In this document: positions 26,838-61,923 of the stretch, piece by piece
Numbering within the stretch: the stretch's first letter is position 1
Layout: each line of letters begins with the position of its first letter
Origin: Lentzea alba
GTDB lineage: Bacteria > Actinomycetota > Actinomycetes > Mycobacteriales > Pseudonocardiaceae
Assembly (NCBI RefSeq): GCF_011067745.1
Contig: NZ_JAAMPJ010000006.1
Coordinates: 349,019 to 413,018 of the forward strand
Reading direction: 5' to 3'
Length of the DNA stretch: 64,000 bases
Position numbers and translations under genes: made by a program
The notes under the pieces: generated by a model
Databases searched by the model: none
What the model was told of the DNA's origin: nothing
The model's input: only the letters and a program-made list of their open reading frames with translations

Positions 26838-26851
26838 CTACTCGTGAGTAA
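26838..26851. promoter_or_regulatory. 14-bp lipid-regulon operator, site 1
   Basis: CTACTCGTGAGTAA matches YTACYSGNNAGTAR. It lies in the divergent SCP2-TetR promoter, 16 bp from site 2. Confidence 0.6.
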
Positions 26852-26853
26852 GA

Positions 26854-26867
26854 CTACTGGCGAGTAG
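26854..26867. promoter_or_regulatory. 14-bp lipid-regulon operator, site 2
   Basis: CTACTGGCGAGTAG matches the same consensus. Together with site 1 it brackets the SCP2 -10 candidate. Confidence 0.6.
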
Positions 26868-26917
26868 ATTGGGCGGCAAGCCGATCGGATAATCTTGTTG
26901 CTCCGAACCGAGGGGTA

Positions 26918-27556
26918 ATGATGCGCACAGAAGGTCGAGCCAAGCGCTTGCCACGCGCGGTGCGTGAGCGGCAGATCATGGACGCTGCCGTGGACGTCTT
27001 CTCGAGGCTCGGCTTCCACGCGGCGTCGATGGACGAGATCTCCGAGGTCGCCGGCATCTCCAAGCCGATGCTCTACGCCTACCTCGGCTCGAAGGAAGAG
27101 CTGTTCGCGACCTGCATCCGGCGTGAGGCCACCCGGATGATGGAGGCGATCGCGACCGGCGTCGAGCCCGACCAGGAACCCGACGTGCAGCTGTGGAGCG
27201 GGCTCAGAGCGTTCTTCGGGTTCGTCGGCGAGAACCGGACGAGCTGGATGGTGCTGCACCGGCAGGCGTCGACCCAGGGCGGGCCGTTCGCGGTCGAGCT
27301 CACGGACATGCGCAGCCGAGCGGTGTCGCTGGTCGCGGCGCTGCTCACCCAGTCCACGAAGGCACCCGCGACCAAGCTGGAGGCCGAGTCGCTGGCCGCC
27401 GCGCTGGTCGGGGCCGGCGAGTCGCTCGCGGAGTGGTGGCTCGACCACCCCGAGGAACCCGCCGGCGTCGTCGCGGCCCGTCTCATGAACCTCGTCTGGA
27501 TGGGCTTCGGCGACCTCGTCGACGGCAACGTCTGGCATCCACCGTCACGCCGCTGA
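26918..27556 (+). CDS. TetR-family regulator of the fatty-acid oxidation locus
   Basis: The 212-residue protein has a TetR helix-turn-helix (about residues 18-62; MDEISEVAGISKPMLYAYLG) and a helical ligand domain. It is divergent from the SCP2/acyl-CoA dehydrogenase operon, with two 14-bp operator copies between them, and convergent with the htdX-fabG4 operon, overlapping it by 12 bases. The same operator stands before fabG4/fadA2, the FadE5-like gene and the EtfD-like gene, so this protein is the best candidate for their shared repressor. An acyl-CoA ligand is likely by analogy with other lipid TetR proteins. An AGGGG site precedes the tandem ATGATG. Confidence 0.85.
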   Translation: MMRTEGRAKRLPRAVRERQIMDAAVDVFSRLGFHAASMDEISEVAGISKPMLYAYLGSKEELFATCIRREATRMMEAIATGVEPDQEPDVQLWSGLRAFFGFVGENRTSWMVLHRQASTQGGPFAVELTDMRSRAVSLVAALLTQSTKAPATKLEAESLAAALVGAGESLAEWWLDHPEEPAGVVAARLMNLVWMGFGDLVDGNVWHPPSRR

Positions 27557-28303
27557 CCCCAGCAGATGGGGCCCCTTGCCCCACACCGCGAACTCCCAGC
27601 CGTCCTTCTCGACGGCCGAGAACTCGACGCGACCGGGGATCAGCAGCGGCTTCTTGAACTTCACGTCCACGGTGACGGCCTCGGGCAGCCGGCCTTCCAG
27701 CGACGCGACGCAGCGCGCCTTCGTCCACATCCCGTGCGCGATCGCGCGCTTGAAGCCGAACAGCTTGGCGCTCAACGGGTACAGGTGGATCGGGTTGCGG
27801 TCACCGGACACCGCGCCGTAGCGCCGTCCGATGTCCGCGGGCACGCGCCACACCGCCGAACCGACCGGTCGTTCCAGCTCCTCGCCCGACGACGGCCCCG
27901 ATCCGGTCCGCCGCAGGTAGGTCGACACGCCTTCCCAGACACCGGAAACCGACGTCACCACGTCGACCTGGGTGCCCTGCGGATGCGGCCGCAGATCGCG
28001 CGCGGTCACAGTGATCTCCAGCGGTTCGTCCAGGGTCAGCGGCCGCGACTGGGTGATCCGGTTCGCGATGTGCACCAGACCCGGCAACGGGAACGGGAAC
28101 CCCGCGCCCGTCATCAGCTTCATCTGCGACGGAAAGCCCAGCACGTGCGGGTAGGTCAGCGGCAACGCGTCGCGCAACCCGAACCCGCACACCGAGCTGT
28201 AGGTCGTGAGATGCCTCAGTGAGACGTCGACAGTGGCCGAAACCGGCTGGGCCGCCAGGGTTTGCCCGCGCCGGAACGACGTCAGGGCGGCGCGCACCAA
28301 CAT
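27545..28303 (-). CDS. htdX: MaoC-type (R)-3-hydroxyacyl-thioester dehydratase, HtdX-like
   Basis: The 252-residue protein has two hot-dog halves. The C-terminal half carries the hydratase-2 motif YGAVSGDRNPIHL with the catalytic Asp and His, followed by GFKRAIAHGMW. It adds or removes water at (R)-3-hydroxyacyl thioesters. Its ATG overlaps the reductase stop as TGATG. The arrangement htdX-fabG4 divergent from fadA2 matches M. tuberculosis Rv0241c-Rv0242c-Rv0243, which supports the name. Confidence 0.88.
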   Translation of the reverse strand: MLVRAALTSFRRGQTLAAQPVSATVDVSLRHLTTYSSVCGFGLRDALPLTYPHVLGFPSQMKLMTGAGFPFPLPGLVHIANRITQSRPLTLDEPLEITVTARDLRPHPQGTQVDVVTSVSGVWEGVSTYLRRTGSGPSSGEELERPVGSAVWRVPADIGRRYGAVSGDRNPIHLYPLSAKLFGFKRAIAHGMWTKARCVASLEGRLPEAVTVDVKFKKPLLIPGRVEFSAVEKDGWEFAVWGKGPHLLGSAA

Positions 28304-29538
28304 CACGCCCCCAGCAGCATCTGGCCGCACACCCGCACGACGTTGCCGTTCACGCCACCGGAACCCGGCGACGCGAACCACGCCACCGTCTCCGCCACGT
28401 CGACCGGCAGACCGCCCTGCGACAGGCTGTTCATCCGGCGGCCGACCTCGCGCGTCGCGAACGGCACCGCCGCGGTCATCTTCGTCTCGATGAAACCGGG
28501 CGCCACGGCGTTGATCGTCGCGCCGCGCGCGGCCAGCACGGGCGCCAGCGAGCGAACCATCCCGATCACGCCCGCCTTCGAGGTGGCGTAGTTGGTCTGG
28601 CCGACGTTGCCCGCGATGCCGGCGATCGACGAGACCCCGACGATCCGTCCGCCGGAACGCAGCACGTCGCCGTTCAGCAGTGCGTCGTTGATCCGCTCCT
28701 GGCACGCGAGGTTGACCTCCAGCACGGAGTCCCACAGCGAGGAGTCCATGCGCGCCAACGTCTTGTCGCGCGTGATGCCCGCGTTGTGCACGACGACGTC
28801 CACGCCGCCGTGCCGTTCCAGCAGGTACGAGGTCAGCTTCGCCGGGTCGCCGGTGATGTCGAGCTGCAGCGCCGACCCGCCGATGGCGTTCGCGACCTTG
28901 GACAGGTCTTCCCCTGCCGCGGGCACGTCCAGGCACACCACGTGCGCGCCGTCGCGGGCGAGGGTGGAGGCGATCGCCTCGCCGATGCCCCGGGAGGCAC
29001 CCGTGACCAGCGCGACCTTGCCCTCCATCGTGCCGGTGGCAGCGTTGTCGGAAACGTGGATCACCTGGCCGGACACGTACGCCGACCGTCCGGACAGCAG
29101 GAACCGCAGGGTCGACTCGACCCCGTCCTCGGCGCCGTCCGCCACGTAGAGAAGGTTCGCCGTGCCGCCGTGCCGCAGCTCCTTGCCGACCGACCGCACG
29201 AAGCCTTCGAGCGCCCGTTGCGCCACGGAGTCCGGCGACCGCCCGATGACGATCACCCGTCCGCACGGCCCGAGCTGCGTGATCACCGGGTGGAAGAAGT
29301 CGTGCAGCTGCCGCAGTTCGCTCACCGTCGTTATCTCGGACGCGTCGAACACCAACGCGCCGTAGGGAGCGGATCCTGTTTCGAGCTGCTTGAGAAAGGG
29401 CAGCCGGGAAGCGCCGCCGGTCAGCACGGGTGTGGCCAGCGCGGCGTCGCGCCGGAGCGGATGCGGGTTCGGCAGGCCGAGCCTGCGGACGAGCTGGCGA
29501 CCCAGCCCCGACGTTGCGAACTTCTGGTACCTGTCCAC
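28303..29538 (-). CDS. fabG4: FabG4-like 3-oxoacyl-thioester reductase
   Basis: The 411-residue protein is about 150 residues longer than ordinary FabG. The N-terminal half is a flavodoxin-like domain without a nucleotide motif. The C-terminal half is a full SDR reductase: VTGASRGIGEAIA, HNAGITRD, VSSIAG with the catalytic Ser, and NYATSKAG with Tyr and Lys. This two-domain form is FabG4 of mycobacteria, an NADH-dependent 3-oxoacyl-CoA reductase. The GTG at 29538 lies 7 nt after TAGGTT (29546-29551), predicting a leaderless mRNA; a GTG three codons earlier is less likely. Operator sites 3 and 4 cover its promoter. Confidence 0.88.
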   Translation of the reverse strand: MDRYQKFATSGLGRQLVRRLGLPNPHPLRRDAALATPVLTGGASRLPFLKQLETGSAPYGALVFDASEITTVSELRQLHDFFHPVITQLGPCGRVIVIGRSPDSVAQRALEGFVRSVGKELRHGGTANLLYVADGAEDGVESTLRFLLSGRSAYVSGQVIHVSDNAATGTMEGKVALVTGASRGIGEAIASTLARDGAHVVCLDVPAAGEDLSKVANAIGGSALQLDITGDPAKLTSYLLERHGGVDVVVHNAGITRDKTLARMDSSLWDSVLEVNLACQERINDALLNGDVLRSGGRIVGVSSIAGIAGNVGQTNYATSKAGVIGMVRSLAPVLAARGATINAVAPGFIETKMTAAVPFATREVGRRMNSLSQGGLPVDVAETVAWFASPGSGGVNGNVVRVCGQMLLGA

Positions 29539-29545
29539 GTCACAC

Positions 29546-29551
29546 AACCTA
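29546..29551 (-). promoter_or_regulatory. -10 box of fabG4
   Basis: TAGGTT on the minus strand ends 7 nt before the fabG4 GTG and overlaps operator site 3. Confidence 0.5.
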
Positions 29552-29562
29552 CTCGCTAGTAA
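29549..29562. promoter_or_regulatory. 14-bp lipid-regulon operator, site 3
   Basis: CTACTCGCTAGTAA matches YTACYSGNNAGTAR. It covers the fabG4 -10 box and the expected fadA2 -35 region, 16 bp from site 4. Confidence 0.65.
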
Positions 29563-29564
29563 GT

Positions 29565-29578
29565 CTACCCGCTAGTAG
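29565..29578. promoter_or_regulatory. 14-bp lipid-regulon operator, site 4
   Basis: CTACCCGCTAGTAG matches the consensus and lies in the fadA2 promoter spacer, just before its -10 box. Confidence 0.65.
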
Positions 29579-29579
29579 G

Positions 29580-29585
29580 TAGTAT
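29580..29585 (+). promoter_or_regulatory. -10 box of fadA2
   Basis: TAGTAT ends 6 nt before the ATG of the thiolase gene, predicting a leaderless mRNA. Confidence 0.5.
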
Positions 29586-29591
29586 GTCGGC

Positions 29592-30797
29592 ATGCGAGTA
29601 GCGATCATCGGCGGCAACCGCATTCCGTTCGCCCGCTCGAACGGCCCGTACGCCACCGCCTCGAACCAGGACATGTTCACCGCGGTGCTGGACGGGCTGG
29701 TCAGCCGCTTCGGCCTGCAGGGCGAACGCCTCGGCGAGGTCGTCGCCGGCGCCGTGCTCAAGCACTCGCGCGACTTCAACCTCGTCCGCGAGTCCGTCCT
29801 CGGCAGCAAGCTCAGCCCGGACACGCCCGCGTACGACCTGCAGCAGGCGTGCGGCACCGGGCTGCAGGCGATCATCGCCGTGGCCAACAAGGTCGCGCTC
29901 GGCCAGATCGAGGCGGGCATCGCGGGCGGCGTCGACACCACGAGCGACGCCCCGATCGGCGTGAACGAGAACTTCCGCAAGCTCCTGCTGGAGTTCAACC
30001 GCACCCGCAAGGTCAGCCTGCTGACGAAGCTCCGCCCGAGCCACGTCGTGCCGCACCTGCCCCGCAACGGCGAACCGCGCACCGGTATGTCGATGGGCGA
30101 GCACGCGGCCATCACCGCGGCCAAGTACGGCGTCACGCGCGAGGACCAGGACGAGCTCACGGCCCGCAGCCACCAGAACCTCGCCCGCGCCTACGACGAG
30201 GGCTTCTTCGACGACCTGGTCACGCCCTACCTCGGCCTGACCCGCGACCAGAACCTCCGCCCGGACAGCAGCGTCGAGAAGCTCGCCAAGCTGAAGCCGG
30301 TCTTCGGCGACACCATGACCGCCGGCAACTCGACCCCGCTGTCCGACGGTGCCTCCGCGGTCCTGCTGGCCACCGAGGAGTGGGCGCGTGCGCGCAAACT
30401 CCCGGTGCTGGCCTACCTGACGTTCGCCGAGACCGCCGCCGTCGACTACGTGCACGGCGAAGAGGGCCTGCTGATGGCCCCGGTGCACGCCGCGCCGCGC
30501 ATGCTCGACAAGGCGGGCCTCAAGCTGCAGGAGTTCGACTTCTACGAGGTGCACGAGGCGTTCGCGTCCCAGGTGCTCGCCACGTTGAAGGCCTGGGAGA
30601 CCGACCTCGGCGAGATCGACCGGACCAAGCTGAACGTCAACGGCTCGTCGCTCGCGGCCGGCCACCCGTTCGCCGCCACCGGTGCCCGAATCGTGGCGAC
30701 CTTGGCGAAGTTGCTGCACCAGAAGGGAAGCGGGCGCGGGTTCGTGTCGATCTGCGCGGCGGGCGGTCAGGGAATCACGGCGATCCTGGAGCGATGA
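29592..30797 (+). CDS. fadA2: FadA2-like acetyl-CoA acetyltransferase (thiolase)
   Basis: The 401-residue protein is a complete thiolase. The nucleophile is Cys87 in QQACGTGLQA, the activating His is in HEAFASQV, and the second Cys is in ICAAGGQGITA at the C-terminus. The sequence ENFRKLLLEFN...LTKLRP belongs to the FadA2/FadI-like branch. It cleaves 3-oxoacyl-CoA to acetyl-CoA plus the shortened acyl-CoA. It is divergent from fabG4-htdX and shares two operator copies with them. The ATG lies 6 nt after TAGTAT. Confidence 0.92.
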   Translation: MRVAIIGGNRIPFARSNGPYATASNQDMFTAVLDGLVSRFGLQGERLGEVVAGAVLKHSRDFNLVRESVLGSKLSPDTPAYDLQQACGTGLQAIIAVANKVALGQIEAGIAGGVDTTSDAPIGVNENFRKLLLEFNRTRKVSLLTKLRPSHVVPHLPRNGEPRTGMSMGEHAAITAAKYGVTREDQDELTARSHQNLARAYDEGFFDDLVTPYLGLTRDQNLRPDSSVEKLAKLKPVFGDTMTAGNSTPLSDGASAVLLATEEWARARKLPVLAYLTFAETAAVDYVHGEEGLLMAPVHAAPRMLDKAGLKLQEFDFYEVHEAFASQVLATLKAWETDLGEIDRTKLNVNGSSLAAGHPFAATGARIVATLAKLLHQKGSGRGFVSICAAGGQGITAILER

Positions 30798-30846
30798 GTT
30801 TCGCGAACTCCTGAAGTCAACCCATCCGAACCCGATCAGGACAAGG

Positions 30847-31836
30847 ATGGCGATCATGACGCTGCAGGAAGTGCTGGACGCTCACCGCGAGGCCGTGCCC
30901 ACCGCGGTCGCGCTCATCGCCCGAGGCGACGACGTCGAGTTCGCGGCGATCGGCGAGGACACCCGCGAGTCGGTCTTCCCGATCGCCTCGGTCACCAAGC
31001 CGATCGTCGCCACGGCGGCAGTGCTCCTGGTGCGGGACGGCAAGATCGGTCTCGACGACCCGATCGCGGACTGGTTGCCCGAACTGGCGAACCCGGTGGT
31101 CGTCCGCACGCCGGCCAGCGAGATCGACGACGTCGTCCCCGCGGCCAGGCCCATCACCGTCCGGCACCTGCTGGCGTCCCGTTCCGGCTGGGGCTTCACC
31201 GCGGACTTCTCGTTGCCCGCCACCAGGAAGCTCTTCGACGAGGCGCACCTGCACGGCCGCCCGGATCTCCCGGCCCCGGAGGAATGGCTCAAGCACCTCG
31301 CCCAGGTGCCGCTGCTGCACCAGCCCGGCGACGGCTGGACCTACAACACGTCCTACGACGTCCTCGGCGTGCTGCTGCACCGCGCCACGGGCTCGCTCCC
31401 GGACTTCCTGACCGAACACCTCTGCGCACCGGCCGGCATGACGAACACCGCCTTCATCAGCGACGTTCTTCCGTCCGGCGCCGGCGGCCTCAACTCCACT
31501 GTGGACGATCTGCTGGCGTTCAACCGCTACCTGTTGTCCAGTGATCTGGTTTCGCGACTCGCGGTCGACACCACGTCGGCCGAGGAGCGCGAGGCCGGGC
31601 AGCTCTTCCTCGAAGGCCAGGGCTGGGGCTTCGGCGGCAGCGTCGACATCGCCGAGATCGACCCGTGGAACGTCCGCGGCCGCTACGGCTGGGTCGGCGG
31701 TTCGGGCACCACCTCGCACGTCGTGCCGTCGCAGGACATGGTCGCCGTTCTGCTCACCCGCACCGCCATGACCGGTCCCACCCCGACCGAGATCATGCGC
31801 GACTTCTGGCGGTACGCCGCGAGCGAAGCTATGTAA
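30847..31836 (+). CDS. Beta-lactamase-fold serine hydrolase
   Basis: The 329-residue protein belongs to the class C beta-lactamase/esterase group. It has the nucleophile motif SVTK (about residue 52), the second motif in TYNTSYDVLG, and a glycine-rich GGSGTTSH where the KTG-like motif should be. No signal peptide is present, so it is probably a cytoplasmic esterase or amidase rather than a drug-resistance enzyme. AGGA lies five bases before the ATG; an ATG three codons later is also possible. It follows fadA2 by 49 bases and could be transcribed with it. Confidence 0.85.
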   Translation: MAIMTLQEVLDAHREAVPTAVALIARGDDVEFAAIGEDTRESVFPIASVTKPIVATAAVLLVRDGKIGLDDPIADWLPELANPVVVRTPASEIDDVVPAARPITVRHLLASRSGWGFTADFSLPATRKLFDEAHLHGRPDLPAPEEWLKHLAQVPLLHQPGDGWTYNTSYDVLGVLLHRATGSLPDFLTEHLCAPAGMTNTAFISDVLPSGAGGLNSTVDDLLAFNRYLLSSDLVSRLAVDTTSAEEREAGQLFLEGQGWGFGGSVDIAEIDPWNVRGRYGWVGGSGTTSHVVPSQDMVAVLLTRTAMTGPTPTEIMRDFWRYAASEAM

Positions 31837-31898
31837 ATTGAACGGTCAATCATGCACACTTCCAGCACCGCGACGTGGCGGTGCTGGGGGTGGGACTG

Positions 31899-32150
31899 AT
31901 GAACGTTGATCCCGAGAAAGACCCGGTGCTGGCTCGCGCCCTCGTCGGCACCCTGCGCGACGAGTGGCGGCCGGCCGCCGACGCGATGGCGTCCGCGAAG
32001 GAGTGGGAACGCCGCACGTACATCGTCCTGACCCTGGCCGCGGCGGCCGCGCGACGGGACGTGTGGCTGACCAAGTGGCGCGAAGCCAGGCCCGACGACT
32101 GCGACGCGGCTGCCGTGCAGGCGGCCGTGGTGGCACTCCAGGCGAGCTAG
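31899..32150 (+). CDS. Small hypothetical protein, possibly an N-terminal remnant
   Basis: The 83-residue helical protein has RDEWRPAADAMASAKEWERR and a second Trp-rich helix WLTKWREARPDDCD, resembling the first repeats of larger TPR-like actinobacterial proteins. It stops where those repeats would continue. Whether it is complete or a remnant cannot be decided without searching. The frame is open back to 31875 (GTG), but the ATG has a purine-rich GGGGGTGGGA upstream. Inverted repeats of TTGA...TCAA lie before it (31839-31852) and after it (32198-32212). Confidence 0.45.
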   Translation: MNVDPEKDPVLARALVGTLRDEWRPAADAMASAKEWERRTYIVLTLAAAAARRDVWLTKWREARPDDCDAAAVQAAVVALQAS

Positions 32151-32197
32151 ACGAACAATTTCACGGCTCGTCAGGAATTGACCTGGAAGCGATTTTG

Positions 32198-32212
32198 TTG
32201 ACCAATGGTCAA
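32198..32212. promoter_or_regulatory. Palindrome TTGACCA-A-TGGTCAA
   Basis: Perfect 7-bp arms around one base lie about 75 bases before the membrane-anchored protein gene. It could be a TetR- or MarR-type operator. No regulator gene is adjacent. Confidence 0.4.
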
Positions 32213-32275
32213 CGCGACTTCTAGCAGGTCAGGGCGTATACGGGTAGTGGCCGCCGAGGAGATTGGTGGATCTCC

Positions 32276-32281
32276 TACGCT
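32276..32281 (+). promoter_or_regulatory. -10 box of the membrane-anchored protein gene
   Basis: TACGCT ends 7 nt before the GTG at 32289. Confidence 0.45.
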
Positions 32282-32288
32282 TTTGTCC

Positions 32289-33841: not shown

Positions 33842-33847
33842 TACGGT
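33842..33847 (+). promoter_or_regulatory. -10 box of the AAA ATPase gene
   Basis: TACGGT ends 7 nt before the ATG at 33855. Confidence 0.45.
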
Positions 33848-47819: not shown

Positions 47820-49655
47820 TTAGAAGACGCTCTCGTCGATGTCCATCAGCGCGTTGTCGGTCGTCTCGGCGATCTTGCGGCGGGCGGTGAGCTCCGGCAG
47901 CACGTTCTTCGCGAAGAACGACGCCACGGCGATCTTGCCCTCGTAGAACGCCTTGTCCTTGGCCGACGGCGCACCGTCGAGCTTCTGCAGCGCGACCTCG
48001 GCCTGCCGCAGCAGCAGCCAGCCGACGAGCACGTCACCCGCGGTCATCAGCAGGCGGACCGAGTTCTGGCCGACCTTGTAGAGGTTGCGGACGTCTTCCT
48101 GCGACGAAGTCAGGAAGCCGACCAGCGAGCCGAGCATGCCCTGCAGGTCCTCGAGACCCTGCTTGAGCAGCGCGCGCTCCTCCTTCAGGCGACCGTTGCC
48201 GCCCTCGTTGTCGAGGAAGGACTGGATCTCGCCGTTGATGAACGCGAGCGCCTGGCCCTTGTCGCGGATGATCTTCCGGAAGAAGAAGTCCAGCGACTGG
48301 ATGGCCGTGGTGCCCTCGTACAGCGAGTCGATCTTCGAGTCCCGGATGTACTGCTCGATCGGGTACTCCTGCAGGAAGCCGGAGCCGCCCAGGGTCTGCA
48401 GCGACTGCGCCAGCTGCTCGTACGCGCGCTCGGAGCCGACGCCCTTGACGATCGGCAGCAGCAGGTCGTTGACCTTCGCCGCGAGCTCCGCGTCCTCGCC
48501 GCCGAGCATCACCTTGTCCTGGAACGTCGCGGTGTACAGGTACACCGCGCGCAGGCCCTCGGCGTACGCCTTCTGCAGCATCAGGCTGCGGCGCACGTCG
48601 GGGTGGTTGGTGATGGTGACGCGCGGGGCGGTCTTGTCCGTCATGCGCGTCAGGTCGGCGCTCTGCACGCGCTCCTTGGCGTAGGACAGCGCGTTCAGGT
48701 AGCCGGTCGACAGCGTCGCGATGGCCTTGGTGCCGACCATCATGCGGGCGTACTCGATGACGTCGAACATCTGCGCGATGCCGTCGTGCACCTCGCCCAG
48801 CAGCCAGCCCTGGGCAGGGACGCCGTGCTGGCCGAACGTCAGCTCGCACGTGGTGGACGCCTTGATGCCCATCTTGTGCTCGACGTTGGTCACGAAGGCA
48901 CCGTTGCGCTCGCCCAGCTCACCGGTCTGCGGGTCGAAGTGGAACTTCGGCACGAGGAACAGCGAGAGGCCCTTGGTGCCGGGCTTCGCCTCGATGCCTT
49001 CGCCCTCGGGACGCGCCAGCACCATGTGCATGATGTTCTCGGTGAGGTCCTGGTCGCCGGACGTGATGAAGCGCTTCACGCCTTCGATGTGCCAGGAGCC
49101 GTCGTCCTGCTTGATCGCCTTGGTGCGGCCCGCGCCGACGTCGGAACCGGCGTCCGGCTCGGTCAGCACCATCGTGGCGCCCCAGCCGCGGTCGATCATG
49201 AGCTGCGCCCAGTGCTGGTCGCGCTCGGTGCCGTTGTTGTAGACGACCGTCGCGAAGCTCGGGCCGGCCAGGTACATGTAGATCGGAGGGTTGGCGCCGA
49301 GGATCATCTCGGACGCGGCCCAGGCGACCGACGGCGGCGTGCCGAAGCCGCCCAGCGCCTCGGGCAGGAACATCCGGTACCACTCGCCGTCCCAGATCGC
49401 CTGGTACGACTTCTTCAGCGACTCCGGCAGGGTCGCCGAGAACGTCGCCGGGTCGTACTTCGGCGGGTTCCGGTCGGCGTCGGCGAACGAGTCCGCGAGC
49501 GGACCCTCCGCGAGAGTCTTCATCTCGGACAGAACGCCGCGCGCGGTGTCCTCGTCGGACTGCTCGAACGGCCCCTTGCCGAGGTGGTCCTGCACGTTGA
49601 AGACCTCGAACAGGTTGAATTCGAGATCCCGGACGTTGCTCTTGTAGTGGCCCAT
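47820..49655 (-). CDS. fadE5: FadE5-like acyl-CoA dehydrogenase
   Basis: The 611-residue protein is longer than ordinary acyl-CoA dehydrogenases and equals mycobacterial FadE5 in length and form. It starts [18 protein letters not shown], has [12 protein letters not shown] (FAD contact), [13 protein letters not shown], and [14 protein letters not shown] with the catalytic Glu region. The C-terminal extension of about 130 residues is helical. FadE5 of M. tuberculosis (Rv0244c) acts on a wide range of chain lengths and lies beside the fadA2 cluster there; here it is 17 kb away. Two 14-bp operator copies stand before the gene. GAGGAG precedes the ATG. Confidence 0.9.
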
Positions 49656-49692: not shown

Positions 49693-49706
49693 CTACTGAC
49701 CGGTAA
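49693..49706. promoter_or_regulatory. 14-bp lipid-regulon operator, site 5
   Basis: Read on the minus strand it is TTACCGGTCAGTAG, a match to YTACYSGNNAGTAR. It lies 38 bases before the FadE5-like ATG. Confidence 0.6.
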
Positions 49707-49716
49707 CAACAGAGTA

Positions 49717-49730
49717 TTACCCGACAGTAA
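49717..49730. promoter_or_regulatory. 14-bp lipid-regulon operator, site 6
   Basis: TTACCCGACAGTAA matches the consensus. A TACTCT -10 candidate (49711-49716, minus strand) lies between sites 5 and 6. Nothing else is recognised in 49731-49955. Confidence 0.6.
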
Positions 49731-49955: not shown

Positions 49956-50600
49956 CTACTCGACGCCTGGCGTGCGCGCGGTGCCGATCAGCAGCCCTGA
50001 CCGGTACGCGAGCGACACCGCGTGCGTCCGGTCGCGGGCGCTGAGCTTGCGCAGGATGCCCTTCACGTGGGTCCGCACGGTCTCCACGGACACGATGAGC
50101 TCGTCCGCCACCTGCTGGTTCTCCAAGCCGTCCGCGATGAGCGTCAGCACCTCGTACTCGCGCCGGGTGAGCGTCGGCCGTTCCTTCGGGCGCAGGTCGG
50201 GGTGCACGTAACCGCGTGACCTGCACGTCTCGGCGATGACCCGCACGATCTGCTCGGGCTGGGCACTTCGCGGCACGACGCCGTGCACCCCCGCCTCCAG
50301 CACGCTCGTCACGTAGTTCGCGTGCGAGTGCGCGTCGCGGACCAGTCCGATGATCAGCAAAGTCGGGTCGCGCTCGACCAGCAGCCGGGCCAGGTGGCCC
50401 ACCGGATCGAGCACGGAGTCGATGAGCAGCACGTCGGGGCGCAGTCGTTCGTGCAGGCGAACGGCCGCGTGCAGATCGCCCGTGGAACCGAGCCAGCGCA
50501 GCCCCGGAGTCCGCCTGATCAGGGCGGACAGGCCTTCGCGGTACAACGGCACGGGGTCGATCAGCGCGACGCCGGGAGCAGGCCGGCCAGACGAGAGCAT
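49956..50600 (-). CDS. LuxR/NarL-type response regulator with atypical receiver
   Basis: The 214-residue protein has an N-terminal receiver-like domain and a C-terminal LuxR helix-turn-helix (about residues 140-200; LTRREYEVLTLIADGLENQQ). The phospho-acceptor Asp is probably kept in DVLLIDSVLD, but the usual Lys is Arg (GVVPRSAQ) and the acidic pair is reduced to one Asp. No histidine kinase gene is adjacent. It may be an orphan regulator working without phosphorylation. GGAGG five bases before the ATG at 50600 gives the start. It is divergent from the symporter. Confidence 0.85.
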   Translation of the reverse strand: MLSSGRPAPGVALIDPVPLYREGLSALIRRTPGLRWLGSTGDLHAAVRLHERLRPDVLLIDSVLDPVGHLARLLVERDPTLLIIGLVRDAHSHANYVTSVLEAGVHGVVPRSAQPEQIVRVIAETCRSRGYVHPDLRPKERPTLTRREYEVLTLIADGLENQQVADELIVSVETVRTHVKGILRKLSARDRTHAVSLAYRSGLLIGTARTPGVE

Positions 50601-50842
50601 CAGCACCTCCGTTCGTGCTTCCGCAGAAGAGACGTCGTTCCCTCGGACGTGTGACGCGGAATAGCCGGTTCACGTGGGTGAACAAGGATCACGAATGTGA
50701 TTCAAGACAGCTGAAGGTCTTCCGCCGCGGGGCAACAGTCTCGTAAGACCTACGTCACATATCCCGTGCGGATGTGCCAGGTTCCGCCGCCATGAGGCCT
50801 GGTGCTCTCGCGGGCACACGTGTGTGCACGCAAGGAGGTCAC
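50601..50842. promoter_or_regulatory. LuxR-symporter divergent promoter region
   Basis: This 242-base gap holds the promoters of both divergent genes. I see no clear -10 box or palindrome; an AAGGAGG ribosome site stands just before the symporter ATG. Confidence 0.3.
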
Positions 50843-55691: not shown

Positions 55692-55698
55692 GACGATC

Positions 55699-55704
55699 AG
55701 CCTA
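55699..55704 (-). promoter_or_regulatory. -10 box of the CDF transporter gene
   Basis: TAGGCT on the minus strand ends 7 nt before the ATG. Confidence 0.45.
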
Positions 55705-55752
55705 GGCGGGCGCCGGGCGCCGGGCGCGGCAGCGAGTGGTTAGGCCATTCGA

Positions 55753-55845
55753 GTGACATTCCAATCCCGGGGCAACATCTGGAAGGTCTGCGGTGTCTTA
55801 AGGCTGGGATCTGCACCGGGGGGAACGCTGATCACCAGGGGGTAA
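55753..55845 (+). CDS. Candidate leaderless small ORF, 30 residues
   Basis: A GTG starts 6 nt after TAGGCC (55741-55746), which resembles the leaderless promoters of neighbouring genes but lacks the final T. The 30-codon frame ends at TAA, and a 12-bp terminator hairpin begins 5 bases later. The peptide starts VTFQSRGNIWKVCG. Promoter, ORF and terminator fit a complete small gene. Without homologs it is only a candidate, and a small RNA is an alternative. Confidence 0.35.
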   Translation: MTFQSRGNIWKVCGVLRLGSAPGGTLITRG

Positions 55846-55849
55846 GACG

Positions 55850-55884
55850 GAACGGCCCGCGTTCGGGAGAGGCGCGGGCCGTTC
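55850..55884. terminator. Hairpin before the MarR gene
   Basis: A 12-bp perfect stem GAACGGCCCGCG has an 11-base loop and no long T-run. It separates the candidate small ORF from the MarR promoter. Confidence 0.65.
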
Positions 55885-55914
55885 TGCATGTCGGGGCGAC
55901 CTAACCAGCGCAAC

Positions 55915-55920
55915 TACCAT
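55915..55920 (+). promoter_or_regulatory. -10 box of the MarR gene
   Basis: TACCAT ends 6 nt before the ATG at 55927. Confidence 0.45.
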
Positions 55921-55926
55921 CGTGGG

Positions 55927-56478
55927 ATGGGCAAGCGTGGTGCGGACGACACCGATGCCGAGGTCGAGTCGTGGAGGGCCATGGTTCCGGCGATCGATCC
56001 GGTGGTCGAAGGCGTGGTCGACCGGGTGCACCAGATCAGCAAGTACCTCGACTTCCTCGCCACGGAGATCGCCGCGCCGCACGGGCTCAACCGCGCCGAC
56101 TACGAGATCCTCGCCCGGCTCTTCTGGATCGGGCCGCCGCACCGGCTCACGCCCAAGCAGCTCGCGAACGGCACGCTGAGCCCGGCCACCACGATCACGA
56201 GCCGCCTCGACCGGCTGGAGAAGGCGGGGCTCGTCCTGCGCGAGCTCGACCCGAGTGACCGCCGGTCGTTGCCCGCCACGCTGACCGACGCCGGGCGCGA
56301 GATCTTCCTGCAGATCGTCGCCGGCCAGGCCGAACGGGAGCGAGACCTCTTCACCGCGCTGCCCGGCGGCGATCTGGAGAACCTGCGCGACCTGCTGCGT
56401 CAGGTGATGGAAGTGCTGAGCGGTGAACTGGGGCCCGCGCACCGTCGCACCAGGCTCGCGCTCGACAGCAAGGAGTAA
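55927..56478 (+). CDS. MarR-family regulator
   Basis: The 183-residue protein has the MarR winged helix (about residues 55-125): LNRADYEILARL, LANGTLSPATTITSRLDRLEKAGL as recognition helix and DPSDRRSLPATLTDAG as the wing. Flanking helices form the dimer. Target and ligand are unknown. The ATG lies 6 nt after TACCAT. The cation exporter gene is divergent, but no palindrome was recognised between them. Confidence 0.9.
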   Translation: MGKRGADDTDAEVESWRAMVPAIDPVVEGVVDRVHQISKYLDFLATEIAAPHGLNRADYEILARLFWIGPPHRLTPKQLANGTLSPATTITSRLDRLEKAGLVLRELDPSDRRSLPATLTDAGREIFLQIVAGQAERERDLFTALPGGDLENLRDLLRQVMEVLSGELGPAHRRTRLALDSKE

Positions 56479-56636
56479 TTGCTACGAACTCGTACTATCC
56501 GATATCGTGCTAACTGGCGCGAGAGGGAGGGGTACGACATGGGCGGCTATCCACTGTCCGAGTGACGGGAATCATGCAACGCTGAACCCCCGGTGTTCCG
56601 ATGTCCTAAGTGGAGCAATCGAACGCTGGGGGATCA

Positions 56637-57887
56637 GTGAAGAAGTTCTTCGCCGTCGCGATGACGGCTGCTCTCGTGCTGCCTGCCGCGGCCACGTCGG
56701 CCGCGGCGCAGGACGAGAAGATCACCATCGAGGGCCTGGTCTGGCTCGACCGCAACGGTGACAAGAAGTTCGACGGTGAAGCGGTGCTCGCCGGCGAGAC
56801 GAAAATCGTGAAGATCAGCAAGCACGGCGGCGGTGACGTCGTCGGCGAGTACGCGACCGACGACAAGGGTCGCTACGCGGCGCGGGATCTGCCTACCGGC
56901 AAGTACGACGTGCAGGTGTCCGGCGCGCGGTACACGCCCACCACTTCGCGGACCGTCACGTCGGAAGGGGGGACCGTCGACTTCGGCGTGCGCGGCAAAG
57001 GCATCGCGGGTCACTCCTTCCACGACCGCAACCGGGACGGTGTCCGGCAGACCGGCGAGGAACTGCTGTCGCCGGGGACGCTGAACGGCAAGCCGATCGG
57101 CATGCCCGGCGAGGACGGTCAGTTCAGCGTCGACGACCTGCCGTTCGGCAAGTACGAGTTCGTCGCGGCCGACTACACGCAGCGCGGCCTGGCGCTGGTC
57201 AAGCCGACCGGCACGCACCCGATCGACTGGGCCACCGGCACTCTCGAGTTCACGCTCGGCGAGTTCGAGGGGCCGGCTCCACTCGAGGTGCTGTACTTCG
57301 AGGCCAAGGCGGACATCGCCGTCGCGGCCGCGGTCGTGCCGGCCAAGGCCTCCTACGTCCTCGGCGAGCAGATCGACGTCGAGCTGACGCTCACGAACAA
57401 GGGTGACGTGCCGATCGTGCCGTCCGTGGTCATGGCCGAGTTCATGGCGAAGCTGCTGTCCCACAGCGACAACATCAAGATGCTCAACGGCAGGGACGAC
57501 GACTTCGAGACCGTCAGCAAGATCCTTCCCGGACAGCAGGTGAAGGTCACGCTGAAGGTCGAGCTGAACGACGTCACCTTCGACGAGGTGTGGCCGATCG
57601 CGCGCTTCAACTTCGGCAACCTCAAGGACGTCGACCACAAGAACAACGTCGTGCGCCTGCCGATCAAGGTCGTCGAGAAGAGCACCACCACCGAGCCGAG
57701 CGCGCCGTCCTCGACCTCGCAGACCGCCGCGCCGGCCACCACGACCACTCCGGCCGTGGCCAAGGCGGGCAACAGCTCCGGCCTCGCCTCGACCGGCGCC
57801 TCGCCGCTGGGCTTCCTGGGCCTCGGCGCACTGCTGCTCGCGGCCGGCGCCGCGGCGTTCTTCGTCGCGCGTCGCCGCCGTTCCTGA
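56637..57887 (+). CDS. LAxTG sortase-anchored SdrD/CnaB-like surface protein, copy 1
   Basis: The 416-residue protein has a Sec signal peptide (residues 1-24, ending SAAA). Two or three SdrD/CnaB-like repeats follow, marked by GLVWLDRNGDKKFDGE and GHSFHDRNRDGVRQTGEE (about residues 30 and 125), and a CARDB-like domain (about 225-350). A Ser/Thr/Pro spacer and the sorting signal LASTG come next, then a hydrophobic helix and RRRRS. LAxTG is the sortase E motif of actinomycetes. Asp-rich loops suggest Ca2+. The GTG follows GGGGGATCA. The 158-base gap before it shows no recognised promoter. Confidence 0.88.
   Translation: MKKFFAVAMTAALVLPAAATSAAAQDEKITIEGLVWLDRNGDKKFDGEAVLAGETKIVKISKHGGGDVVGEYATDDKGRYAARDLPTGKYDVQVSGARYTPTTSRTVTSEGGTVDFGVRGKGIAGHSFHDRNRDGVRQTGEELLSPGTLNGKPIGMPGEDGQFSVDDLPFGKYEFVAADYTQRGLALVKPTGTHPIDWATGTLEFTLGEFEGPAPLEVLYFEAKADIAVAAAVVPAKASYVLGEQIDVELTLTNKGDVPIVPSVVMAEFMAKLLSHSDNIKMLNGRDDDFETVSKILPGQQVKVTLKVELNDVTFDEVWPIARFNFGNLKDVDHKNNVVRLPIKVVEKSTTTEPSAPSSTSQTAAPATTTTPAVAKAGNSSGLASTGASPLGFLGLGALLLAAGAAAFFVARRRRS
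57769..57887 (+). repeat. 3' repeat shared by the tandem surface-protein genes, copy 1
   Basis: The last 119 bases, encoding the sorting signal, are nearly identical to 59078-59196, with a long fully identical core coding for FLGLGALLLAAG. Confidence 0.85.
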
Positions 57888-57912
57888 CATACCAATGTCC
57901 TTGGGGGACAAC

Positions 57913-59196
57913 GTGAAGAAGCACCTCGCGGTCGTACTGACCGCAGGCCTCGCCCTGACCGCGGCGGGCACTCCTGCCCTCGCGCAGGAGGACAAGATCA
58001 CCATCGAGGGTCTGTTCTTCCTCGACCGCAACGGCGACAACACCTTCACCGAAGGTGAGAGCGTCCGCGCCAACGGCAACGGCGTCCGGATCTACGTCGA
58101 GGGCACCAACGAACTGGTCGGGAGCTTCCCGACCGGTGCGGACGGCAAGTTCAAGGCCGTCCTGCCGAAGGGCCCGAAGTACGCGGTCAACAACAACGAC
58201 ATGTACGACTTCACGACCACCAAGCTGGGCTACGAAACGTCGGAGTCCAAGTCGGACGCCAACTTCCCGCTGCGCGGCACCTTCCTCAACGGCTTCACCT
58301 TCGTCGACGCGAACGGTGACGGCGTGAAGCAGGAGACCGAGAAGACGCACGGCGGCAAGGTCAAGGTCACCGGCAAGACGCAGACCGGTGCCGACCTCAA
58401 CGTCGAGGCCGAGGCCGCCGCGGACGGTTCCTACCTGCTCGACCTCCCCATCGGCGACCTGACCGTCATCGCGCCGGAGATCAAGAAGAGCGGCCTGGCG
58501 CTGGCCAAGCCGAAGACCGACTACGACGTCGACTGGCTGACCGGCACGCGTGCGGTGTCGCCGAACCTCAACGACCGCACGCAGCGAATCGATCTGCGCT
58601 ACTTCGAAGCCAAGGCCGACATCGCCATCGCGTCCGCGATCACGCCGCTCGAGGACGTCTACACCCGCGGCGAGCAGATCGACCTCAAGCTCACGCTGTC
58701 GAACAAGGGCGACGTGCCGGTCGCGCCGGAGGTCGTCCTGGGCAGCTTCTTCGCGAAGCTCGTGTCCCACAGCGACAACGTGACGGTGCAGCCGGGCACC
58801 GACGACGACTTCAGGGTCATCAACAAGATCCTCCCCGGTCAGCAGATCGAGGTCGCTCTGAAGATCGAGCTGGACGACATCAAGTACGACGAGGTGCACG
58901 CGATGGTGCGCTTCATCCACAGCGGCGGCCTGCCGGACGTCGACCACAAGAACAACGTGGTCAGCACGAAGATCAAGGTCGTCGAGAAGGCCGTCACGAG
59001 CGCGCCGTCCGCACCGTCCTCGACCTCGCAGACCGCCGCGCCGACCACCACGACCACGCCGGCCGTGACGCAGGCGGGCAACAAGTCGGGTCTCGCGTCG
59101 ACCGGCGCGTCGCCGCTCGGCTTCCTGGGCCTCGGCGCACTGCTGCTCGCGGCCGGTGCGGGTGCGTTCTTCGTGGCGCGCCGCCGACGTTCCTGA
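57913..59196 (+). CDS. LAxTG sortase-anchored SdrD/CnaB-like surface protein, copy 2
   Basis: The 427-residue paralog of the preceding gene has the same layout: signal peptide, SdrD-like repeats (GLFFLDRNGDNTFTEG, GFTFVDANGDGVKQETE), a CARDB-like domain with KADIAIASAITP and SHSDN, a Ser/Thr-rich spacer, LASTG, helix and RRRRS. The N-terminal half has diverged while the sorting end is nearly identical in DNA, so the pair arose by tandem duplication with possible later gene conversion. The GTG follows GGGGGACAAC, the same leader style as copy 1. The 25-base gap implies one operon. Confidence 0.88.
   Translation: MKKHLAVVLTAGLALTAAGTPALAQEDKITIEGLFFLDRNGDNTFTEGESVRANGNGVRIYVEGTNELVGSFPTGADGKFKAVLPKGPKYAVNNNDMYDFTTTKLGYETSESKSDANFPLRGTFLNGFTFVDANGDGVKQETEKTHGGKVKVTGKTQTGADLNVEAEAAADGSYLLDLPIGDLTVIAPEIKKSGLALAKPKTDYDVDWLTGTRAVSPNLNDRTQRIDLRYFEAKADIAIASAITPLEDVYTRGEQIDLKLTLSNKGDVPVAPEVVLGSFFAKLVSHSDNVTVQPGTDDDFRVINKILPGQQIEVALKIELDDIKYDEVHAMVRFIHSGGLPDVDHKNNVVSTKIKVVEKAVTSAPSAPSSTSQTAAPTTTTTPAVTQAGNKSGLASTGASPLGFLGLGALLLAAGAGAFFVARRRRS
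59078..59196 (+). repeat. 3' repeat shared by the tandem surface-protein genes, copy 2
   Basis: This is the second copy of the sorting-signal segment described at 57769-57887. Confidence 0.85.
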
Positions 59197-59217
59197 CCAC
59201 TTAGGACCCGTCACGGC

Positions 59218-59223
59218 TAGTCT
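59218..59223 (+). promoter_or_regulatory. -10 box of the holin-like membrane protein gene
   Basis: TAGTCT ends 7 nt before the ATG at 59231. Confidence 0.45.
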
Positions 59224-59230
59224 GCGCGGC

Positions 59231-59611
59231 ATGGGCATCTTGGTGCATGTGCTGCTGACCGCCGTGGCGGTCTGGGTGTCGACCGCCCTTCCCGGCATCG
59301 ACCTGGGCGAGGGCACCACCGGTTCGAGAATCCTCACGCTGATCGGCGTCGCGGTGATCTTCGGCCTGGTGAACGCGGTCGTGAAGCCGCTCGTGAAGTT
59401 CTTCGGCTGCCTGTTCTACCTGGTCACGCTCGGCTTGATCGGGCTCGTGGTGAACGCGCTGCTGTTCATGTTCACCGGGTGGATCGCCGAGCAGCTGGAC
59501 CTCCCGTTCCGCGTCGACGGCTTCTGGCCGGCCTTCTGGGGCGCGATCATCGTCGCCCTGACCGGCTGGGTGCTGAACGTGATCTACGACAAGATCACAG
59601 ACAAGGACTGA
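59231..59611 (+). CDS. Phage-holin-4-like (DUF360-type) membrane protein
   Basis: The 126-residue protein has four predicted helices, NAVVKPLVKFFGCLFYLVTLG at the second and GWIAEQLDLPF before the last. This pattern belongs to the widespread phage_holin_4_2 family, which in actinomycetes is chromosomal and not part of a phage. The function is unknown. The ATG lies 7 nt after TAGTCT. A bidirectional terminator follows. Confidence 0.82.
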   Translation: MGILVHVLLTAVAVWVSTALPGIDLGEGTTGSRILTLIGVAVIFGLVNAVVKPLVKFFGCLFYLVTLGLIGLVVNALLFMFTGWIAEQLDLPFRVDGFWPAFWGAIIVALTGWVLNVIYDKITDKD

Positions 59612-59623
59612 CCCACCAACGGA

Positions 59624-59658
59624 AAATGCCCTCGGTCCACAGCGGACCGAGGGCATTT
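59624..59658. terminator. Bidirectional terminator, 15-bp stem
   Basis: A perfect 15-bp stem AAATGCCCTCGGTCC with a 5-base loop ends in A/T runs on both sides, between convergent genes. Confidence 0.92.
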
Positions 59659-59670
59659 CTCTGGCCTGGA

Positions 59671-61890
59671 TCAGGCGTTGGCGTCCTCGGCGGCCGGCGC
59701 CGGCTGGCCGCGCTTCACGGACTCCAGCAGCATCTGCGCGACGTCCACGACCTCGACGTGCGCGCCCGCCTGGCCGTCGGACTGACGGGCGGTCACGCCG
59801 TCGGTGAGCATCACGCGGCAGAACGGGCAGCCGGTCGCGATCTTCGACGGCGCGGTGGACAGCGCCTCGTCCACGCGGTCGACGTTGATGCGCTTGCCGA
59901 TCCGCTCCTCCATCCACATGCGGGCGCCACCGGCACCGCAGCACATGGAGCGTTCCTCGTGCCGCGGCATCTCGCGCAGCTTCGCGCCGGACGCCCCGAT
60001 GAGCTCACGCGGTGCTTCGTAGACCTTGTTGTGACGGCCCAGGTAGCACGGGTCGTGGTAGGTGACGTCCTCGGTGACCGGCGCGACCGGCACCAGACGG
60101 CGTTCGCGCACCAGCTTGTTCAGCAGCTGCGTGTGGTGCACGACCTCGTAGGTGCCGCCGACCTGCGGGTACTCGTTCGCCAGCGTGTTGAAGCAGTGCG
60201 CACACGTGACAACGATCTTGCGCTGGCCAAGAGGCCGGTCCTCGAAGACCGAGTTCAGGACTTCCACGTTCTGCTGCGCGAGCATCTGGAAGAGGAACTC
60301 GTTGCCGGCGCGGCGGGCCGGGTCACCGGTGCAGGTCTCCTCCGGGCCGAGCACGGTGTACTTGACCCCGGCGGTGTGCAGCAGCTCGGCGACGGCGCGG
60401 GTGGTCTTCTTCGCGCGGTCCTCGAACGCACCGGCGCAGCCGACCCAGAACAGGTACTCGGCGTCGCCCAGTTCGCCGTCGAACACCGGCACCTCGAACT
60501 CGAGGCCGTCGGTCCACGCCAGGCGGTCCTTGGAGTTCTGACCCCACGGGTTGCCCTTGTTCTCCAGGTTCTTGAACATGCCGCCGAGCTCGGTCGGGAA
60601 GTTCGACTCGATCAGCACCTGGTAGCGGCGCATGTCGACGATGTGGTCGACGTGCTCGATGTCCACCGGGCACTGCTCGACGCACGCGCCGCAGGTGGTG
60701 CAGGACCACAGCACCTCGGGGTCGATGACGCCCAGCTCGTCCGGGCCGCCGACCAGCGGGCGCTCGGACTCCGCCATCGCCAGCACGTCGATGGACTCGA
60801 GGCGCTTCTTGTAGTCCTCGTACTTGTCCTCGGTCAGGCCGACCTCGTCACCGGCCATGTCGCGCGAGCCGCCGGCCAGCAGGTACGGCGCCTTGGCGTA
60901 CATGTGGTCGCGCAGCTGCGTGATGACCAGCTTGGGCGACAACGGCTTGCCGGTGTTCCACGCGGGGCACTGCGACTGGCAGCGGCCGCACTCGGTGCAG
61001 GTGGAGAAGTCGAGAACGCCCTTCCAGGTGAAGTCCTCGACCTTGCCGACGCCGAACACGTCCTTGTCCGGGTCGGCCTCCTCCAGGTTCAGCACCTTGC
61101 CGCCGGACATCATCGGCTTCAGGGCGCCGAGCGCGACGCCGCCGTCGTCCTCGCGCTTGAAGTAGATGTTGAAGAACGCCGAGAACCGGTGCCAGGCGAC
61201 ACCCATCGTCAGGTTCCGGCCGACCACGATCAGCCAGATCATGCCGCTCAGCAGCTTGACCAGCGCCATCACCGACACCCAGACGGGCGCGGCGGGCAGG
61301 ATCTGCGCGAGCGGCTGCGACACGAACGACGTCCACAGCGGCGCGACCTCGAGGCCGCTCGACTGCTTGAACGCCTTGACCATCAGGATGCCGACACCCT
61401 CGATGATCACGACCGCCTCGACGAAGTAGGCGGACTTGAAGTCGGAACCCTGGAAGCGGGAGACCCGGTCGGCACGGCGCGGGTGGTTGCGCTGGCGGAT
61501 GATCGCGAGCGCCACGCCACCGACGACGGTGCCGAGCCCCAGCAGCTCGACGAGCAGCAGCCAGACCGACCACGTGCCGATGATCGGCCAGTGGAAGTGC
61601 GGGTCGAACACCTCGCCGTAGGCCTCGAACAGCACCGCGGAGCCGATGAGGAAGCCCCACATCACCATCCAGTGCCACGGGGCGACCGAACGGAACTTCG
61701 CCATTCTGGTGTGCGCGACGAATTCGACGATCATCGTCTTCAGCCGCGGCCCGAACGGCCCGAAGCGGGTCCCGTCCGGCTGGCCGAGCCGGATGATCTT
61801 GATCTGCTTCAGCACGGCGGCGACGAACACGCCCCAGGCGACGACGCTCACCGCCACGGCGACGAGTCCGAGAACCAGCTGGAGGGTCAT
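59671..61890 (-). CDS. etfD: EtfD-like ETF:quinone oxidoreductase (membrane Fe-S protein)
   Basis: The 739-residue protein has about six membrane helices in the first 260 residues (NarI-like). A two-[4Fe-4S] ferredoxin domain follows (CTECGRCQSQCP and CTTCGACVEQCP, about 310-420). Two CCG domains end it, as in HdrB (HDPCYLGRHN, SMCCGAGGARMWMEE). This is the architecture of M. tuberculosis Rv0338c, shown to be EtfD, which takes electrons from acyl-CoA dehydrogenases via ETF to menaquinone. The ATG lies 6 nt after TAGACT, and one operator copy covers the -35 region, linking it to the beta-oxidation genes. Confidence 0.9.
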   Translation of the reverse strand: MTLQLVLGLVAVAVSVVAWGVFVAAVLKQIKIIRLGQPDGTRFGPFGPRLKTMIVEFVAHTRMAKFRSVAPWHWMVMWGFLIGSAVLFEAYGEVFDPHFHWPIIGTWSVWLLLVELLGLGTVVGGVALAIIRQRNHPRRADRVSRFQGSDFKSAYFVEAVVIIEGVGILMVKAFKQSSGLEVAPLWTSFVSQPLAQILPAAPVWVSVMALVKLLSGMIWLIVVGRNLTMGVAWHRFSAFFNIYFKREDDGGVALGALKPMMSGGKVLNLEEADPDKDVFGVGKVEDFTWKGVLDFSTCTECGRCQSQCPAWNTGKPLSPKLVITQLRDHMYAKAPYLLAGGSRDMAGDEVGLTEDKYEDYKKRLESIDVLAMAESERPLVGGPDELGVIDPEVLWSCTTCGACVEQCPVDIEHVDHIVDMRRYQVLIESNFPTELGGMFKNLENKGNPWGQNSKDRLAWTDGLEFEVPVFDGELGDAEYLFWVGCAGAFEDRAKKTTRAVAELLHTAGVKYTVLGPEETCTGDPARRAGNEFLFQMLAQQNVEVLNSVFEDRPLGQRKIVVTCAHCFNTLANEYPQVGGTYEVVHHTQLLNKLVRERRLVPVAPVTEDVTYHDPCYLGRHNKVYEAPRELIGASGAKLREMPRHEERSMCCGAGGARMWMEERIGKRINVDRVDEALSTAPSKIATGCPFCRVMLTDGVTARQSDGQAGAHVEVVDVAQMLLESVKRGQPAPAAEDANA

Positions 61891-61896
61891 GGCGGG

Positions 61897-61902
61897 AGTC
61901 TA
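61897..61902 (-). promoter_or_regulatory. -10 box of the EtfD-like gene
   Basis: TAGACT on the minus strand ends 6 nt before the ATG. Confidence 0.5.
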
Positions 61903-61909
61903 GGCCACG

Positions 61910-61923
61910 TTACTGGTGAGTAA
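61910..61923. promoter_or_regulatory. 14-bp lipid-regulon operator, site 7
   Basis: TTACTGGTGAGTAA matches YTACYSGNNAGTAR, with extended arms GTTACT/AGTAAC. It covers the spacer and -35 region of the EtfD promoter. Confidence 0.65.

Follow-up and report, generated by a model that had tools for sequence, protein, structure and literature searches.

FdmR (Rv0238), a TetR-type repressor of fatty-acid degradation, was reportedly studied in M. marinum by Dong et al. in 2021. It answers to long-chain acyl-CoA. Here, we analyzed a stretch of 64,000 nt of the Lentzea alba genome (contig NZ_JAAMPJ010000006.1, positions 349,019 to 413,018, below termed the window), which contains a TetR gene and seven copies of a 14-bp palindromic motif. 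The earlier note on this DNA had proposed that the motif ties scattered beta-oxidation genes into one TetR regulon. Systems of this FdmR/FasR type are known from mycobacteria. With a probability of about 70%, the seven sites are operators of a fatty-acid oxidation network based on the core TAC-Y-NNNN-R-GTA, with the window TetR as the FdmR counterpart acting on one operator class (class A), and the second class (class B) being read by another regulator at least in genomes lacking this TetR.

The motif itself has a precedent. TAC-N6-GTA palindromes were described for mycobacteria in 2012 (BMC Genomics 2012, 13:120; PMC3388012), and that article places them in clusters upstream of Rv2524c (fas), Rv3229c, and Rv3230c and links them to palmitate. 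The core, the clustering, the fatty-acid genes, and the conservation are as in the present case; the window sites are likewise TAC and GTA triplets 6 bp apart that are clustered upstream of fatty-acid genes. The motif section of the 2012 account names no reader, and its main text does not contain fadE5. PMC9262360 cites FdmR as regulating fadE5. The oligonucleotide co-crystallized with FasR is TACCCGTACGTAGAACTCGCCAGTA, on which neighboring dimers lie side by side (PMC7382501). FasR (Rv3208) is a TetR-type activator of fas-acpS, and the window TetR differs from it (95 bits with the model NF053731, cut-off 330). Paired palindromes are also known for BkaR (Rv2506), another TetR protein that represses acyl-CoA catabolic genes, but its operator core, GTTA-N-T-N4-A-N-TAAC, is unlike the TAC-N6-GTA of the window (PMC3920632).

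The genes beside the sites are as follows:

24960 to 26174, minus strand: acyl-CoA dehydrogenase (ACAD) gene (PF00441, PF02770, PF02771)
26190 to 26825, minus strand: SCP2-like protein gene (PF02036)
26918 to 27556, plus strand: TetR regulator gene, taken as the FdmR (Rv0238) counterpart (PF00440, 1.6e-13; PF21943, 4.5e-26)
27548 to 28303, minus strand: htdX-like MaoC dehydratase gene (PF01575)
28303 to 29547, minus strand: fabG4-like 3-oxoacyl reductase gene (NF006110, 602 bits, cut-off 410)
29592 to 30797, plus strand: fadA2-like thiolase gene (NF006740, 711 bits, cut-off 539)
47820 to 49655, minus strand: fadE5-like acyl-CoA dehydrogenase gene (PF12806, PF02770, PF00441)
59671 to 61890, minus strand: gene of a membrane Fe-S oxidoreductase (PF02754 in two stretches and 4Fe-4S domains), which we take to be EtfD-like, following the earlier note

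The seven predicted operators, each an exact match to the motif, are listed with their class scores (positive for class A, negative for class B):

26838 to 26851, plus strand: class A, SCP2-ACAD side of a 16-bp pair, +7.3
26854 to 26867, plus strand (motif matched on both strands): class A, TetR side, +4.8
29549 to 29562, plus strand: class A, fabG4 side of a 16-bp pair, +8.5
29565 to 29578, plus strand: class A, fadA2 side, +8.2
49693 to 49706, minus strand: class B, proximal at fadE5, -8.4
49717 to 49730, plus strand: class B, distal at fadE5, -5.2
61910 to 61923, plus strand: class B, at etfD, -7.5

The motif YTACYSGNNAGTAR yielded eight strand-matches at these seven places, 26854 being matched on both strands, while 100 dinucleotide shuffles of the window averaged 0.01 and never exceeded 1. 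A scan with the wider palindrome YTACYNNNNRGTAR returned the identical seven places and none besides, so that both the positions and the absence of further copies in the window hold as claimed. All seven share the core given above. The distance from site 26838 to the SCP2-like start (26825) is 13 bp, and the site at 26854-26867 ends 51 bp ahead of the TetR ATG (26918), which places the TetR gene beside the first pair. The second pair lies between fabG4 (start of the longest open reading frame, 29547) and fadA2 (ATG 29592). The sites at fadE5 start 38 and 62 bp from the ATG (49655), and the single site at etfD starts 20 bp from the ATG (61890). These distances, together with the Pfam and NCBIfam identities of the genes, confirm that all seven sites are found at promoters of lipid-oxidation genes. 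The start-to-start spacings are 16 bp (26838/26854), 16 bp (29549/29565), and 24 bp (49693/49717), again as the earlier note had it.

Beyond the window, we estimated the conservation of the palindrome in upstream regions (300+30 bp) of relatives. For comparison, 53 permuted palindromes of the same composition were used; six of the original 59 were dropped because they were able to match sequences of the real motif (with all 59, the maxima were 7 to 28 in the sets with matches). Among the upstream regions of relatives, the palindrome is present in 29 of 40 for the TetR gene, 37 of 37 for fadA2, all 30 for fadE5 (TetR-bearing relatives), and 27 of 30 for etfD. The controls averaged at most 0.13 in the same regions, with a maximum of 1, showing that the palindrome is a real regulatory code. 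Upstream of SCP2 it was present in 8 of 17 relatives, and none of 38 regions upstream of the operon-internal htdX contained it. In named mycobacteria, it precedes fadA2 in 67 of 67 cases, fadE5 in 48 of 48, and the TetR gene in 19 of 80. This distribution supports the view that the sites are conserved operators that tie together dispersed beta-oxidation genes in this genome and in the sampled genomes of the order.

Where sites are paired, the spacing is kept: 16 bp in 7 of 7 pairs at TetR genes and 6 of 6 pairs at fadA2, 24-25 bp in 5 of 5 pairs at etfD, and 23-25 bp at fadE5 in 17 of 20 pairs of TetR-bearing genomes and 10 of 14 pairs of genomes without the TetR. The 16-bp spacing thus holds in 13 of 13 pairs at TetR genes and fadA2. 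However, pairs occur in only 7 of 40 TetR and 6 of 37 fadA2 upstream regions, and two cooperating dimers, as suggested earlier, are therefore not required. By eye, TetR promoters of the Micromonosporaceae type contain imperfect pairs of the TTACTCTGGCGTAACCTTACGCACGAGTAG type.

The sites fall into two classes, which are separated mainly by their flanking bases. The class A consensus is AAC-YTACTC-NN-GAGTAR-GTT, that of class B is G-TTACY-NNNN-RGTAA-C. At TetR genes and at fadA2/fabG4, C/G flanks were found in 54 of 72 and 78 of 86 half-sites, respectively, and inner C6/G9 in 41 of 72 and 57 of 86. G/C flanks prevail at fadE5 (58 of 100 half-sites) and at etfD (52 of 64), and the inner bases at fadE5 are G6/C9 in 57 and C6/G9 in 31 of 100 half-sites. 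The matrix for the class scores was trained on Pseudonocardiaceae-type loci; in its final form it includes relatives of the window loci and not the window. For sites of other families, the result was as expected in 35 of 43 (class A) and 41 of 44 cases (class B). The named mycobacteria split by gene, with class A at fadA2 (67/67) and class B at fadE5 (48/48). In the literature searched, to which the primary FdmR paper did not belong, a description of two operator classes with differing TetR dependence was not found.

To relate the two classes to the regulator, we compared 18 genomes of the order that have no match at 1e-30 with the window protein ("TetR-less"). All of them contain weaker TetR homologues (6e-46 in G188, 1e-26 to 1e-35 in the rest of 16), and two that were counted as TetR-less, G247 and G267, have diverged homologues (matches of 2e-41 and 7e-40, profile matches of 2e-60 and 1e-56). 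The fadE5 palindrome is present in every one of the 18, and 31 of the 32 sites are of class B, showing that the class B code at fadE5 is independent of the window TetR gene and that it must be read by another regulator in these genomes. A fadA2 gene was detected at 1e-100 in seven of the 18, and none of these seven has a class A site at fadA2; a class B-like site is present in four. Without G247 and G267, the values are 16 of 16 for the palindrome at fadE5 and 0 of 5 for class A at fadA2. These results support an association of the neighboring TetR with the sites in its own promoter and with those at fabG4/fadA2. A shorter palindrome, TAC-Y-NNN-R-GTA, precedes fadA2 in 5 of 7 TetR-less versus 1 of 37 TetR-bearing genomes, and may be a sign of regulator replacement. 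In the fadA2 upstream regions L360-L362, L365, and L366, this form with a 3-bp spacer replaces the class A form with its 4-bp spacer.

The window TetR shares with its mycobacterial counterpart L132 the combination of a TetR N-terminal domain and TetR_C_46, a domain that has five matches in the genome and is thus not unique to it. The neighborhood of FdmR, i.e. htdX, fabG4, and fadA2, is also that of the window TetR and of 37 of the 40 fetched relatives (all except L111, L130, and L137). In named mycobacterial loci, these three genes are nearby in 67 of 80 cases, and fadE5 as well in 50 of 80. The pathway is also the same, and the mycobacterial counterparts (genus g31, six genomes) have 42-45% identity to the window TetR. 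Unlike the gene of FdmR, the window gene lies next to SCP2-ACAD, its promoter contains two operators 16 bp apart, and fadE5 is 20 kb away.

From the sequences, we infer binding, repression, ligand, and class B reader as follows. The window TetR most likely binds class A operators as a dimer, its targets being the promoters of its own gene and SCP2-ACAD and of fabG4/fadA2. Bound there, it would overlap the -10 region and block RNA polymerase until acyl-CoA accumulates. Release from DNA by long-chain acyl-CoA is a prediction for this protein, whose fold is like those of FasR and FadR. The class B operators at fadE5 and etfD probably act alike. At fadE5 in the window, the end of the distal site 49717 runs, on the gene strand, into the -10-like box TAATAC, which lies 15 bp after a CTTGCC element, and the other site of the pair would cover the transcription start. 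The overlap with the box and the predicted start makes promoter occlusion the natural reading. In TetR-less genomes, class B must be read by another regulator, most likely FasR or a relative; in L. alba, the reader would be this same regulator, FdmR, or the two of them.

Several observations weigh against this division of labor. The fadE5 palindrome in 18 of 18 TetR-less genomes (paired in 14) shows the class B code to be independent of the window TetR gene. The FdmR identification is based on the neighborhood and on published locus numbers, not on the sequence of Rv0238 itself. Sixty-one of the 80 TetR promoters of named mycobacteria lack an exact palindrome, and 16 of the 19 sites in the others, many of them from near relatives, score as class B, so that class A is not strictly that of FdmR. 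The inner bases at etfD favor neither class (31 vs. 29 of 64 half-sites), and many promoters with sites outside of the window show no obvious lipid gene (see below). In addition, FdmR has been cited for fadE5, and the mycobacterial fadE5 sites are class B, which suggests that FdmR may read both classes.

One alternative is that the window TetR is the sole reader of the seven sites, that the class differences are irrelevant for binding, and that in genomes lacking it another regulator took over fadE5. The common core, the published link of FdmR to fadE5, and the class B scores of the mycobacterial TetR promoters are all compatible with it. However, the palindrome at fadE5 is equally kept with and without the TetR (30/30 and 18/18), as are the 23-25-bp pairs (17 of 30 and 10 of 18), and in named mycobacteria the class follows the gene, so that we regard this explanation as doubtful. 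As to the regulon of the earlier note, dispersed beta-oxidation genes do share conserved operators and the TetR co-occurs with class A at its own promoter and at fabG4/fadA2, while class B at fadE5 persists in all TetR-less genomes; the TetR may nevertheless read class B as well. A regulon is the right kind of explanation, but a single regulator for the seven sites is unproven and probably an oversimplification. Another alternative holds that the flank difference between the classes merely mirrors an overlap with the -10 boxes of divergent promoters. The RGTAR end often runs on into a TARNNT-like hexamer, and T at +17 of the distal site is frequent (TetR 20/29, fadA2 17/37, etfD 16/27, fadE5 19/30 with and 6/18 without the TetR) compared with a background of 0.16-0.17. 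Yet the far-side C is found both in TetR promoters that lack a divergent gene (12 of 14) and in those that have one (13 of 15), and is thus not a by-product of a divergent promoter; furthermore, the inner bases at positions 6 and 9 differ between fadA2/TetR and fadE5. An explanation by promoter overlap is therefore improbable.

A third possibility concerns FasR, which could be the general class B reader across the order, activating synthesis and repressing beta-oxidation, with FdmR as a lineage-specific addition for class A. We split the FasR oligonucleotide into TACC-CGTA-CGTA and AACT-CGCC-AGTA, which in our own reading are two imperfect copies of the palindrome form, and the palindrome reported upstream of fas has the same core. 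The FasR counterpart of L. alba (L417:2049-2678, 291 bits, FasR-model cut-off 330) is preceded by the TAC-N6-GTA palindrome CTACCAGCGAGTAA (gene and site together within L417:1970-2678), a hint at autoregulation or at cross-regulation with FdmR. The core TAC-Y-N4-R-GTA was found upstream of 5 of 15 fasR-type genes of TetR-less genomes, three times with the full 14-mer. The remaining 10 have no core upstream; the 15 genes were chosen by the look of their sequences, and the only one compared with the FasR model, L305, reached 285 bits (cut-off 330). Moreover, the sites at fasR promoters have intermediate class scores (-0.4 to -5.3 for five sites, +0.4 for that of L. alba), the published role is that of an activator at fas, and no paper joining FasR and fadE5 was found in the literature searched. 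The evidence is suggestive of the FasR paralogue as the best candidate for class B among published relatives, and a role of FasR throughout the order can be put forward tentatively.

Additional regulators were considered. The TetR encoded beyond etfD (62121-62945) was rejected as the reader of the etfD site: it occurs in 8 of 30 etfD loci (taken with 1.5 kb flank), all from the window's family, and in L355, and therefore leaves the order-wide class B unexplained. For a TetR close to PDB 4g12 (L004) and a relative in another genome (L393), the palindrome lies 264 and 114 bp upstream, respectively, and this TetR may be a candidate class B reader; the label "BkaR-like" for it would be a guess, and the published BkaR operator is of another form. 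A third TetR type occurs in TetR-less genomes (e.g. L311, L319), and 9 of 9 genes of this type lack an upstream site. Nothing pertinent was found in the literature on FadR1 of Saccharopolyspora.

In the whole genome of 10.2 Mb, the exact motif maps to 21 places (23 strand-matches; reversed control, 3), and the palindrome occurs at 63 places (control, 25), while a scan with one mismatch was uninformative (159 matches vs. 138). Of the 56 palindromes outside of the window, 47, representing 42 promoters, were examined, with a Pfam scan of part of the adjacent genes. Only three of the 47 lie inside called genes, the coding share of 400 kb of evenly spaced DNA of this genome being 87%. Twelve of the 42 promoters have a beta-oxidation enzyme gene according to Pfam:

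L011, L031: thiolases
L012, L030: enoyl-CoA hydratases
L033: 3-hydroxyacyl-CoA dehydrogenase
L003, L034, L408, L423: acyl-CoA dehydrogenases
L014, L409: AMP-forming ligases
L002: electron transfer flavoprotein (ETF) subunit

Outside of these twelve, the following lipid-related genes are adjacent to palindromes:

L001: acyltransferase
L004, L037, L418: lipase-like hydrolases

Other neighbors include a protease-like protein, a methyltransferase, and DXP reductoisomerase. Members of beta-oxidation families make up 11 of 59 site-adjacent genes (11 of 38 loci) compared with 4 of 395 genes in the evenly spaced DNA (p=6.7e-8). This test used a single seed set, with seeds drawn from the site genes; after removal of the four seeds that matched only themselves, the values are 7 of 55 and p=6.4e-5. 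By this enrichment, the motif is not equally common away from lipid genes, which the earlier note had named as a possible refutation, although no lipid gene is evident at many of the additional sites. Class A-like sites also precede two further TetR genes of this genome, L412:1306-1905 (26 bp upstream, class score 9.5) and L424:1335-1943 (59 bp upstream, class score 6.3); the latter encodes a TetR_C_46 paralogue.

The motif in mycobacteria (2012) and FdmR (2021) were already known; the two operator classes with different TetR dependence are added here. FdmR-type control of fatty acids would extend from mycobacteria to Pseudonocardiaceae and sampled relatives of the order, and the operator definition can be used for scanning any of their genomes. 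The search for the TetR that controls core beta-oxidation (fadE5, etfD) is thereby made more specific. It is a speculation, and on balance an unlikely one, that Mycobacteriales use one operator alphabet with two dialects for burning and making fat: class A would be read by FdmR and appear or disappear together with it, and class B would be read order-wide by FasR or a close relative. If this were true, synthesis and breakdown would be adjusted reciprocally by a single family of acyl-CoA-sensing TetR proteins, and FdmR would have arisen by duplication and taken charge of the fabG4/fadA2 branch. The Pseudonocardiaceae include well-known producers of antibiotics. The acyl-CoA formed by beta-oxidation is a precursor of polyketides, which makes the regulon of practical interest as well.

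Directly upstream of fadE5, a gene for a LuxR-type response regulator is located on the same strand (49956-50606), and such a regulator is near fadE5 in 9 of 30 loci of TetR-bearing relatives (1.5 kb flank per locus). The second TetR gene, 62121-62945 (PF17940), follows a small open reading frame that by eye resembles an SMR-type transporter, and the intergenic region beside it contains other repeat-like stretches around AACTTGATCAAAAACTT. By eye, the protein encoded at 57895-59196 resembles a surface-anchored protein: its start is signal-like, it contains repeats, and at the C-terminus a hydrophobic stretch is combined with an arginine-rich tail.

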